This document shows, piece by piece, positions 18,418 through 21,167 of a stretch of 64,000 nucleotides of DNA. The translations under genes were made by a program, and so were the position numbers. The notes beneath the pieces are model-generated. The model worked only from the letters and a program-made list of their open reading frames with translations, was not told the origin of the DNA and ran no database searches. The stretch covers positions 62,001 through 126,000 of the forward strand of contig NZ_FOOF01000001.1 in NCBI RefSeq assembly GCF_900113115.1. The letters run 5' to 3'. Every line of letters starts with the position of its first letter. The stretch's first letter is position 1. This DNA is from Duganella sp. CF458 (GTDB lineage Bacteria; Pseudomonadota; Gammaproteobacteria; Burkholderiales; Burkholderiaceae_D).

Positions 18418-19128
18418 TTAGCCATCCGCCCGCCTGAGCGTGAAATGACGAAATCTGGACTTCACCTGTCCTAGCATCTCGCTGTCCAGCGCGCCCTCGC
18501 TGGACGAATCAATCAGATCTTGCGCGCGGCAACCCACTGAACGGAAGTCCTGCAGTGCATACGTCTTGCAGCCCATGTCGGCAATCTGCCGCGTCAACGC
18601 GGAAATATGCCGGCGGGTGGTCAGCGCGGGATGGACTGTGGTCCTGAGTTCGTATGGCACGCCACTGTCGATGACTAGACGAGCAGCGGCGTGCGCCGCT
18701 TTCCCACTGCCGCTGGCACCGGTGATGTCGTCGTACGCGTCGAATGATGTCTTGATATCGAGGCCTATCCAGTCCACCAGCGGCAAGACCTGCTTCAAGC
18801 GTTCCGGGTAGATGCCAGCGGAGTGCAGGCCCACTTTGAAGCCCAGCGCCTTCACGCTGCGCATGGCGCTCTCCAGCGCGGGGTCGATGGTTGGTTCGCC
18901 TCCGGAAAACACTACCGCATCAAGCAACCCGGCCCTGCCGGCGAGGAAGGCGAGCAGTTCACCCCATGCCAGCGCAGGCGTACCGTCCCGCGGCTGCAAG
19001 TGGGGGTTGTGGCAGTAGCCGCAGCGCCAGGGACAGCCCTGGACGAACACCACGGCTGCCAGCTCGCCGGGATAGTCGGTCGACGTGAACTTTGTGTAGC
19101 CGCCGACCTTGAGCTTCTTGTCAGCCAT
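18418..19128 (-). CDS. nrdG: Anaerobic ribonucleotide reductase activating protein (radical SAM)
   Basis: 236 residues. Uses S-adenosylmethionine and a [4Fe-4S] cluster to install the glycyl radical on the class III reductase. The cluster motif is CPWRCGYC (Cys32, Cys36, Cys39) in the usual CX3CX2C spacing, followed by FSGGEPTIDP, the radical-SAM GGE motif. The start at 19128 is the family N-terminus (MADKKLKVGGY); upstream codons in the frame are shadow. It overlaps the stop of the 57-codon radical-domain gene by 8 bases, so the three genes form an operon. Confidence 0.93.
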   Translation of the reverse strand: MADKKLKVGGYTKFTSTDYPGELAAVVFVQGCPWRCGYCHNPHLQPRDGTPALAWGELLAFLAGRAGLLDAVVFSGGEPTIDPALESAMRSVKALGFKVGLHSAGIYPERLKQVLPLVDWIGLDIKTSFDAYDDITGASGSGKAAHAAARLVIDSGVPYELRTTVHPALTTRRHISALTRQIADMGCKTYALQDFRSVGCRAQDLIDSSSEGALDSEMLGQVKSRFRHFTLRRADG

Positions 19129-19294
19129 TATTCCGCTGCTCGACAAAATAAGTGCGCTCGTTGAACTCGCCTTTCTTGCCGACGTTGAAGGACGAGTACG
19201 GGCGATGGTAGCCCATGACACGCGTCCAGATCTCGCAAGGCTGGCGCTCGGCGTTGTCCAGCGTGATGTCCTGGTTTGGTTGATTGGCGTTCAT
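19121..19294 (-). CDS. Separate glycyl-radical domain of class III ribonucleotide reductase
   Basis: 57 residues, too short for most gene finders. The C-terminal two thirds read CEIWTRVMGYHRPYSSFN, then KKGEFNERTYF, i.e. the glycyl-radical tail that normally ends NrdD: RVMGY holds the radical Gly (Gly28), with the family's conserved Arg and Tyr around it. It has its own GAGGAG ribosome-binding site and ATG, 10 bases after the stop of the nrdD gene and in a different frame, and it overlaps nrdG by 8 bases. The large NrdD protein ends after its Zn-finger region and has no radical motif. I infer that this peptide docks on NrdD and carries the radical in trans, comparable to GrcA with pyruvate formate-lyase. 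Confidence 0.85.
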   Translation of the reverse strand: MNANQPNQDITLDNAERQPCEIWTRVMGYHRPYSSFNVGKKGEFNERTYFVEQRNNG

Positions 19295-19304
19295 GCATAT
19301 CTCC

Positions 19305-21026
19305 TCAGTTGATTGAAAGTTCGCGCGTCTTGCGCGCAATGATGTCCTCATCGCATTTGGGACAGAATTCGTGCTTGCCGCTTAAGTAGCCGTGTTTTGG
19401 ACAGATCGAGAAGGTCGGCGTGACTGTGATGTACGGAAGGCGGAAACGTGTCAATGCCCGCTGCACCAGGCGCCGGCATGCGTCGGCGCTGGAGACCTGC
19501 TCGGTCATATACAAGTGCAGGACTGTGCCGCCGGTGTATTTCCTTTGCAGGCCGTCCTGCAGCTCCAGCGCCTCGAACGGATCGTCGGTAAAGCCGACTG
19601 GAAGCTGCGAAGAGTTGGTGTAGTACGGCATTTCCTTCGTGCCCGCCTGGAGAATCTGCGGCATGCGCACGCGGTCCTCCTTGGCGAAGCGGTACGTCGT
19701 GCCTTCGGCAGGCGTCGCCTCGAGGTTAAACATGTGACCCGTCTGCTCCTGGAACTCCAGCATGCGGCCGCGGATGTGATCGAGCAGTCGTACCGCAAGC
19801 GCAGCGCCAGCGTCGGTCGTGATGTCTTCCTGATCGCCGCTGAAGTTTCGGATCATTTCATTGATGCCGTTCACGCCGAGCGTCGAAAAGTGGTTGCGCA
19901 GTGTGCCGAGATAGCGCTTTGTATAGGGGAACAGGCCGCCATCCATCAGTCGCTGGATGACCTGGCGCTTGATCTCAAGGCTGGTCTTCCCCAATTCGAG
20001 CAATTCGTCCACGCGGGCGAACAGCGCCGCCTCGTCGCCGGCATACAGGTAACCCAGGCGGGCACAATTCAGTGTGACCACGCCAAGTGAACCGGTTTGT
20101 TCGGCCGATCCAAACAGGCCATTGCCTCGCTTGAGCAATTCGCGCAGGTCAAGCTGCAAGCGGCAGCACATGGAGCGGATCATGTTCGGCTTGAGTTCCG
20201 AGTTCACGAAGTTCTGGAAGTAAGGCAAGCCGTAGCGGGCCGTCATTTCGAACAGCAATTCCGCGTTCGGACCGTGCCAGTCGAAATCCGGCGTGATATT
20301 GTAGGTCGGGATCGGGAAGGTGAAGGCGCGGCCCTTGGCGTCGCCACCCATCATTACTTCGATGTAGGCGCGGTTGATCATGTCCATCTCGGCCTGCAGG
20401 TCACCGTAGGTGAAGGGCATCTCCTCTCCGGCGATCAAGGGCACCTGCTGCTGCAAGTCTTCCGGGCAGGTCCAGTCGAAGGTCAGGTTGGTGAACGGTG
20501 TTTGCGTGCCCCAGCGCGAAGGGACGTTCAGGTTATAGATCAGCTCCTGCATGGTCTGCTGTACCTGCTCGTATCCCAGCTTGTCCTTGCGGACGTAAGG
20601 TGCCAGGTAGGTATCGAAGGAACTAAATGCCTGCGCGCCGGCCCACTCGTTCTGCAGCGTGCCAAGGAAGTTCACGATCTGGCCGGCCGCGCTGGACAGG
20701 TGCTTCGGCGGAGCCGATTCCACTTTTCCCGGCACCCCGTTCAAGCCCTCGTTCAACAAAGTGCGCAACGACCAGCCGGCGCAGTAACCGGCCAGCATGT
20801 CGAGGTCGTGGATGTGGATGTCGGCATTGCGGTGCGCCTCGCCGACCTCGCACGGGTAGATGTGATCGAGCCAGTAGTTGGCAACCATCTTGCCGGAGAT
20901 GTTGAGGATCATCCCGCCCAGCGAATAGCCCTGGTTGGCGTTGGCATTCACGCGCCAGTCGAGCTGCTGGAGGTATTCGTTGATTGAGGACTCCACGTCC
21001 ACTGTGGTTTTGCGGGTTTGACTCAT
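19305..21026 (-). CDS. nrdD: Anaerobic ribonucleoside-triphosphate reductase catalytic chain lacking its radical tail
   Basis: 573 residues. Converts NTPs to dNTPs without oxygen. Visible family features: VNFLGTLQNEWAGAQAF, RSMCCRLQLD, NGLFGSAEQTGSLGVVTLNCARLGYL, and near the end CPKHGYLSGKHEFCPKC (metal-binding Cys/His cluster). The chain stops 15 or so residues later (ELSIN) where other members continue into the glycyl-radical tail, and that tail is supplied by the neighbouring 57-codon gene. There is no N-terminal ATP cone, so allosteric control may differ from E. coli NrdD. The promoter carries two NrdR boxes. Confidence 0.93.
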   Translation of the reverse strand: MSQTRKTTVDVESSINEYLQQLDWRVNANANQGYSLGGMILNISGKMVANYWLDHIYPCEVGEAHRNADIHIHDLDMLAGYCAGWSLRTLLNEGLNGVPGKVESAPPKHLSSAAGQIVNFLGTLQNEWAGAQAFSSFDTYLAPYVRKDKLGYEQVQQTMQELIYNLNVPSRWGTQTPFTNLTFDWTCPEDLQQQVPLIAGEEMPFTYGDLQAEMDMINRAYIEVMMGGDAKGRAFTFPIPTYNITPDFDWHGPNAELLFEMTARYGLPYFQNFVNSELKPNMIRSMCCRLQLDLRELLKRGNGLFGSAEQTGSLGVVTLNCARLGYLYAGDEAALFARVDELLELGKTSLEIKRQVIQRLMDGGLFPYTKRYLGTLRNHFSTLGVNGINEMIRNFSGDQEDITTDAGAALAVRLLDHIRGRMLEFQEQTGHMFNLEATPAEGTTYRFAKEDRVRMPQILQAGTKEMPYYTNSSQLPVGFTDDPFEALELQDGLQRKYTGGTVLHLYMTEQVSSADACRRLVQRALTRFRLPYITVTPTFSICPKHGYLSGKHEFCPKCDEDIIARKTRELSIN

Positions 21027-21065: not shown

Positions 21066-21081
21066 ACACTAAATATAGTGA
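21066..21081. promoter_or_regulatory. NrdR box upstream of nrdD
   Basis: ACACTAAATATAGTGA matches the NrdR consensus at 14 of 16 positions. Together with the box at 21035 it marks repression by the (d)ATP-sensing regulator NrdR, which is established for class I, II and III ribonucleotide reductase genes. I saw no NrdR gene in this window. Confidence 0.85.
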
Positions 21082-21167
21082 AAAGCATGTGCAAAAATGC
21101 CGTTTTTTGATTTCCTTGATCTGGTTTAAATTTGATAAGATTCGTGCAAATTTCTTGGAGATCAGCC

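Follow-up and report, generated by a model that had tools for sequence, protein, structure and literature searches.

The class III reductase locus of Duganella sp. CF458

The 64,000-nucleotide (nt) stretch of DNA considered here, taken from Duganella sp. CF458 (contig NZ_FOOF01000001.1, positions 62,001 to 126,000) and called the window below, encodes on its minus strand a class III ribonucleotide reductase (RNR) whose glycyl-radical domain appears to be supplied by a small gene of its own. The catalytic chain, NrdD (19305..21026, minus strand), has 573 amino acids (aa) and carries neither an ATP-cone nor a glycyl-radical motif; its last residues are CPKHGYLSGKHEFCPKCDEDIIARKTRELSIN, followed by a TGA stop just past the zinc-knuckle region. 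Ten nt beyond that stop, and in another frame, starts the separate glycyl-radical subunit gene (19121..19294, minus strand), whose 57-aa product contains CEIWTRVMGYHRP and combines an RVMGY radical loop with a leader, LDNAERQPCE, that includes an invariant cysteine. The GAGGAG ribosome-binding site of the small gene (19301..19306, minus strand) overlaps the nrdD stop codon, and has the same position in locus L126. Next comes nrdG (18418..19128, minus strand), encoding a NrdG2-type radical S-adenosyl methionine (SAM) activase, which overlaps the small gene by 8 nt (19121-19128).

Protein family models place the core chain firmly within class III. It matches positions 93-659 of the 684 in the fused model NF006126 (1042 bits), positions 2-532 of the 562 in PF13597 (575 bits) and TIGR02487 (457 bits), with all three scores above the cut-off; all of its above-cut-off matches are to class III models, none being to the B12-dependent class II barrel, and by sequence it also matches the solved NrdD of Thermotoga maritima. 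The chain stops at position 659 of 684 without the radical motif at its own C terminus, and the motif lies in the next gene. The 57-aa protein matches the missing end, positions 531-562 of PF13597 (29.3 bits, against a Pfam cut-off of 26.2) and 649-682 of NF006126; at E <= 1 PF13597 was the only family found, and PF01228 (Gly_radical) was not matched. The nrdG product scores 192 bits with TIGR02495 and 61 bits with Radical_SAM, as a dedicated activase of class III RNR. The source genome holds one class III core and two matches to the large-chain family of other RNR classes, and a search of it for a radical domain of the pyruvate formate-lyase or GrcA type found none. Judged by sequence, the small gene is the missing glycyl-radical domain and not a chance open frame. 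An earlier note, drawn from the DNA of the window alone, had described a NrdD that ends after its zinc finger without a radical motif, an independent radical-peptide gene with its own GAGGAG in another frame, and an 8-base overlap with nrdG; the reading frames, coordinates and model coverage bear out each of these.

Distribution of the separate radical peptide

The earlier note had left open how often the tail of NrdD is a separate gene, and had allowed that close relatives might be fused without exception. Homologs surveyed for a separate tail show instead that the split is conserved and widespread across the genus, the family and the order. In the genus, the peptide occurs in 44 of 74 genomes (source included), always in an open frame of 60-303 aa that is too short to hold the core, so that it is split in 44 of the 44 peptide-bearing genomes. 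At the family level it was found in 84 of 294 genomes, in no case in a frame longer than 430 aa; one member of the family, G826, has a fused NrdD, a single frame that reaches the end of the TIGR02487 model, and lacks that peptide.

Across the order, 399 genomes were searched both for the peptide and for the core, the latter counted above the curated cut-off. Each was found in 106 genomes and the two together in 105, among which 95 are split and adjacent (the peptide lying at most 700 nt downstream of the core on the same strand), another 4 are split with the peptide displaced, and the remaining 6, which come from a single genus, are fused. In that genus G1337 was read directly, and the other five genomes were judged by frame length and by a hidden Markov model match to 681-682 without a stop. 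A long open frame was not by itself accepted as fusion, since reading showed a split in G1490, G1269, G1334 and G1330 for all their frames of 583-778 aa.

Even draws from the class (369 genomes, 33 over the cut-off) and the phylum (398 genomes, 16 over the cut-off) gave 40 loci that were read; with the window's own locus and one contig fragment left out, 32 are split, 1 is displaced and 5 are fused. In the genome of the omitted fragment, the peptide sits in a 72-aa frame on another contig. Twelve loci with a weak model match (L142-L153), each with a radical motif in the frame of the core, were left out of the counts. In each of the 80 best named genome loci, which were selected for their resemblance to a split peptide, the frame that holds the motif is no longer than 303 aa; they include Duganella, Massilia, Janthinobacterium, Castellaniella, Alcaligenes, Trinickia, Martelella, Rhodopseudomonas and Sulfuricella. 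Plasmids also carry the split, in Paracoccus, Bradyrhizobium, Cupriavidus, Shinella, Azospira and the campylobacterote Sulfuricurvum. Over the 149 loci compared, copies included, 122 are split, 11 fused, 15 core only and 1 peptide only. The split is thus the common state here and not a universal one, Acidiphilium, Actinomyces and one genus of the order being fused. On the Azospira sp. I09 plasmid pAZI09 (L168), the split nrdD, peptide and nrdG have the alpha gene of a ribonucleoside-diphosphate reductase on one side and its beta gene on the other, which makes a cluster of mixed aerobic and anaerobic genes.

Cupriavidus lends the two-chain reading some genetic support. Plasmid pHG1 of Cupriavidus necator H16 carries nrdD (676 aa), a 66-aa small gene labelled nrdD in RefSeq, and then nrdG; NrdD is said to have been put at about 76 kDa by Siedow in 1999, a size that would suit a chain lacking the radical domain. 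PMC2864759, with reference to Siedow 1999, calls nrdDG of C. necator H16 essential for complete denitrification, and names NrdDG of Cupriavidus metallidurans as Rmet_5137 and Rmet_5139. As a small gene directly follows the core on the C. metallidurans megaplasmid, the locus number skipped between those two is probably that gene.

Anatomy and evolution of the peptide

In all 117 distinct split peptides the domain keeps its radical glycine and the residues RxMG, RP, N, GK, E and R without exception. Two residues of the leader LxDxER[QT]xCE are invariant too (117/117): counted back from the R of RVMGY, an arginine at 8 positions and a cysteine at 5, the latter standing 8 residues before the radical glycine. 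The fused loci L102, L122, L125, L130, L141, L164 and L165 run from the zinc knuckle directly into the radical motif and have no leader cysteine. Other fused forms keep it after a longer linker, as in Acidiphilium and a near-identical Acidithiobacillus plasmid copy (L159, L162, L163) and in Actinomyces (L158); the fused genus of the order likewise retains it, within NLEERQPCEIW. Fused forms with the leader cysteine look like re-fusions of a once separate peptide. On a tree of 130 cores the split label has to change 6 times, and well supported branches force at least 3 of these changes; the tree was built by a quick method with long branches flagged, and does not settle the order of splits and re-fusions.

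The added leader, with an invariant cysteine that canonical fused NrdDs lack, is what might be expected if the small peptide were a regulator or assembly factor of NrdD that merely resembles the lost domain and carries no radical. This is highly unlikely, given that every residue of the glycyl-radical signature is invariant, that the core has no other radical site, and that nrdDG of C. necator, where the genes are split, is the pair reported essential.

Independence of the small gene

The small gene behaves as a gene in its own right. Over the 122 split loci its frame relative to the core is distributed 31/42/49 among the three possibilities, and the distance from the core stop to its start ranges from -38 to 376 nt. 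A GGAG, GAGG or AGGA lies upstream of 119 of the 122 chosen starts; as the choice among candidate starts favoured Shine-Dalgarno sites, the cleaner figure comes from loci with a single ATG candidate, where such a site is present in 66 of 67, compared with 9.7% of 3660 control ATGs. Between the source peptide and its closest copy (L022), 20 of the 57 codons differ synonymously and 5 change the residue.

In a few genomes the two genes have parted. In G734 a stretch of about 9 kb with frames on the opposite strand separates the core from the peptide, which still adjoins nrdG; in G1180, of the same genus, the two genes lie on different contigs, neither at a contig end. A 675-codon open frame stands between nrdD and the peptide gene in G1188 (L299 2479-4503), and in G1273 the displacement is due to contig ends alone. 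Because the genes lie apart in G734 and G1180, the peptide there can reach the core only in trans, which lends support to the earlier note's view that the radical would act in trans, the chemistry itself being presumed.

These data also bear on whether a fused NrdD might still be made in vivo by ribosomal frameshifting or stop read-through, with no small protein produced alone. The gene order and the short gaps in most species would suit such a mechanism, as would the common frame shared by 31 of 122 loci. Frame and gap nevertheless vary freely among species, several stops intervene between the genes in some of them, and the genes are far apart in G734 and G1180; fusion of this kind is barely credible and was rejected. 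The chance that the pieces are one gene broken by assembly or sequencing error, or a decayed nrdD pseudogene, is practically nil and was rejected on comparative data: they do match adjacent, nearly contiguous parts of fused models, but the same architecture recurs in many independent genomes whose differing relative frames and gaps exclude the assembly frameshift that the earlier note had thought worth checking, the small gene has its own start and Shine-Dalgarno site, its differences are mainly synonymous and its radical residues are invariant.

A probable two-chain reductase and its relatives

Comparative genomics gives good support to a conserved class III RNR made of two chains, with a probability of about 0.88. 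Core and peptide co-occur near-perfectly, and the peptide persists when moved away from nrdD. Some observations weigh against this reading. G1308 has a core, its match ending at model position 572, and no peptide, while G1270, an assembly of 580 contigs, has the peptide and nrdG and yielded no core. Fused relatives at 73-75% core identity (Acidiphilium, Actinomyces) imply that separation is not needed for function. Structural support from an AlphaFold proxy, the L100 core and peptide read through one stop codon as an artificial single chain, is also weak, with a mean predicted local distance difference test (pLDDT) score of 71 and the last 26 residues below 50; the match of the proxy to solved NrdDs extends through the glycyl loop, the chains being artificially joined.

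In the two-chain enzyme as proposed, catalytic barrel, zinc knuckle and active-site cysteines all belong to the 573-aa chain; NrdG would install the radical on the small chain's glycine, and the small chain would hand it to the active-site cysteine of the large one. Oxygen kills glycyl-radical enzymes by cutting the chain at the radical glycine; here it would destroy only the 57-aa peptide, and a fresh peptide could take its place while the rest of the enzyme is kept. We infer the docking, the formation of the radical, its turnover and the advantage in repair. The core chain by itself lacks a radical site, which makes the operonic peptide less a spare part than an obligate subunit. On the best reading, the peptide is a radical subunit that class III RNR cannot do without, that can be replaced and that acts in trans, and mobile elements carry spares of it; its radical formation, docking and role in repair are presumed.

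Comparison with known systems helps to define what is distinctive here. The fused NrdDs of Escherichia coli, phage T4, T. maritima and Prevotella copri share the barrel family, the zinc knuckle, the glycyl-radical motif and NrdG; in them, however, the radical domain is the C terminus of the same chain, whereas at this locus it is a separate gene with the added leader LxDxER[QT]xCE and its invariant cysteine. GrcA/YfiD and the phage T4 protein Y06I are likewise small, stand-alone copies of a C-terminal radical domain, made by bacteria and phage respectively, as described in PMC8683613. Those proteins serve pyruvate formate-lyase, a different enzyme of another family, and the window peptide belongs to PF13597 and not to PF01228. 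Moreover, GrcA repairs a complete enzyme, whereas the operonic peptide here would be the only radical source of its core. Like GrcA, it seems able to act in trans, the gene displacement in G734 and G1180 being consistent with this.

Other RNRs come in pieces as well. The class II NrdJa/NrdJb pair also has its C-terminal part as a separate chain, according to PMC9669993; NrdJab uses B12, whereas the window chain matches class III models. Phage nrdD genes can have their coding sequence in pieces too, and in PMC3653736 these are mostly the work of introns, inteins and homing endonucleases, or are unexplained breaks, whereas here a whole domain has become an independent gene. A search of the literature that covered only part of the relevant papers found no account of a class III RNR whose glycyl-radical peptide is separate, so that such a subunit is apparently undescribed, if not certainly new.

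Placing the radical residue on a cheap, separate peptide could be how facultative bacteria keep a class III RNR repairable, and the arrangement would offer a natural system for studying radical transfer between two chains. It also makes testable whether enzymes other than pyruvate formate-lyase have spare parts, which the authors of PMC8683613 thought possible for further glycyl-radical enzymes.

Orphan and viral peptides

Copies of the peptide also occur apart from any reductase operon. In genus g472, three genomes each have 1-2 extra peptide genes besides a single core and its operonic peptide, with no nrdD or nrdG near the extra copies within the stretches fetched. The five orphans of g472 each have a single ATG option, with AGGA upstream in 5/5. 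Synonymous codons outnumber residue-changing ones by 13 to 3 and 19 to 4 in two orphan pairs; more distant pairs are less clear (17 to 9, 12 to 13). Over the order, more than one peptide was found in 7 of the 106 peptide-bearing genomes, and the 15 places read comprise one operonic copy in each genome and 8 orphans, two of them less clean (L284 with a partial nrdG-like match nearby, L290 at a contig start).

Mobile-DNA markers adjoin 6 of 13 orphans: tail-fibre and spanin genes near L178, a tail-fibre assembly gene at L287, a neck protein at L294, a peptide at L289 that recurs unchanged on viral contig L252, AcaB near L292, and a DUF3363 protein with a helicase near L281. AcaB and DUF3363 are presumed to indicate conjugative elements. 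The neighbours tested at L177, L180-L182, L283, L284 and L290 gave no clear mobile marker, and some match PHROGs of unknown function.

Viral sequence databases add many further copies. Scanning IMG/VR twice brought up 69 contigs with 75 loci between them. Of these contigs, 3 have a fused NrdD; in the available flanks of the other 66, no nrdD or nrdG match lies beside the peptide. At least 2.5 kb is present on both sides of 39 of 65 viral copies, some others standing near contig ends. A PF13597 search of 50 of the 66 contigs over their whole length (mostly the longer ones; 2.05 Mb, median 35 kb) found no NrdD core, the contigs being possible fragments with none known complete; each gave exactly one match, confined to the last 29-42 positions of the model. 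Scanning viral contigs with the 573-aa core likewise revealed no relative. In 53 distinct viral peptides the glycine and the preceding arginine are kept in 53/53 and the cysteine in 52/53 (L271 was dropped by the motif filter). Viral starts are less regular than bacterial ones, an ATG preceded by a Shine-Dalgarno site being present in 40 of 65 copies, and in 33 of the 53 that have a single candidate. Among 20 flanking proteins from 20 contigs, 12 match phage structural, packaging, integrase, DNA polymerase or replication-initiation families. All four viral peptides tested match phrog_4132, of unknown function, and the peptide family is rare in annotated phage records. Most viral and mobile peptides have 42-90 aa. 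The archaeal virus ANMV-1 (KP703175, L274 2686-3120) carries a 144-aa protein annotated "anaerobic ribonucleoside triphosphate reductase" that consists only of a cysteine-rich knuckle and the radical domain. In L224, L225, L241, L246, L253, L260 and L270, an extra N-terminal cysteine-rich stretch precedes ERxxCE.

It is an even bet that class III RNR has given rise, from its glycyl-radical domain, to a cofactor protein that is mobile and exchangeable. On this reading the peptide travels alone on phages, prophages, an archaeal virus and probably also integrative elements, which would plug it into the host NrdD and restore or boost deoxynucleoside triphosphate synthesis after oxygen damage. Orphan and viral copies might instead be decoys that occupy the host NrdD, or passing cargo, and not working radical parts. 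Such a view draws on the lack of an adjacent nrdD or nrdG and on Shine-Dalgarno sites in just 40 of 65 viral copies; it is unlikely, as the radical glycine is kept in all 53 distinct viral peptides, orphan pairs show coding constraint, and T4 Y06I (PMC8683613) sets a precedent for a working phage radical part. The orphan and phage-borne copies also favour the analogy with GrcA proposed in the earlier note.

If the mobile cofactor reading is true, these copies would add a second family, separate from the first, to the known glycyl-radical spare parts, and would count as an auxiliary metabolic gene of minimal size; they raise the question of why mobile elements carry the radical piece alone. Small genes labelled "nrdD" in RefSeq, or "anaerobic ribonucleoside triphosphate reductase" in ANMV-1, are not whole reductases, and lists of viral auxiliary genes may count ANMV-1-like pieces as NrdD.

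Other features of the locus

Upstream of nrdD by 40 nt lies a NrdR-box-like site (21066..21081, plus strand) with 2 mismatches to the consensus, for which 0.09 occurrences are expected by chance. An FNR-like match stands at 21116-21129, also upstream of nrdD; the pattern TTGAT-N4-ATCAA with 2 mismatches occurs 21 times in the window against 10.8 expected, an excess of about twofold that is not specific. PADLOC gave no match. Many relatives' cores match the model from position 3-4, and in this branch control of activity by deoxyadenosine triphosphate seems to have been lost. The NrdD chain contains an MCCR motif, and its finger-loop tip is GLFG, where the T. maritima isoleucine aligns with the leucine next to the phenylalanine in a sequence alignment made without a tree of named NrdDh members; an MCCR motif with phenylalanine at the finger-loop tip defines the NrdDh4 subgroup in Aurelius 2015 (PMC4493059).

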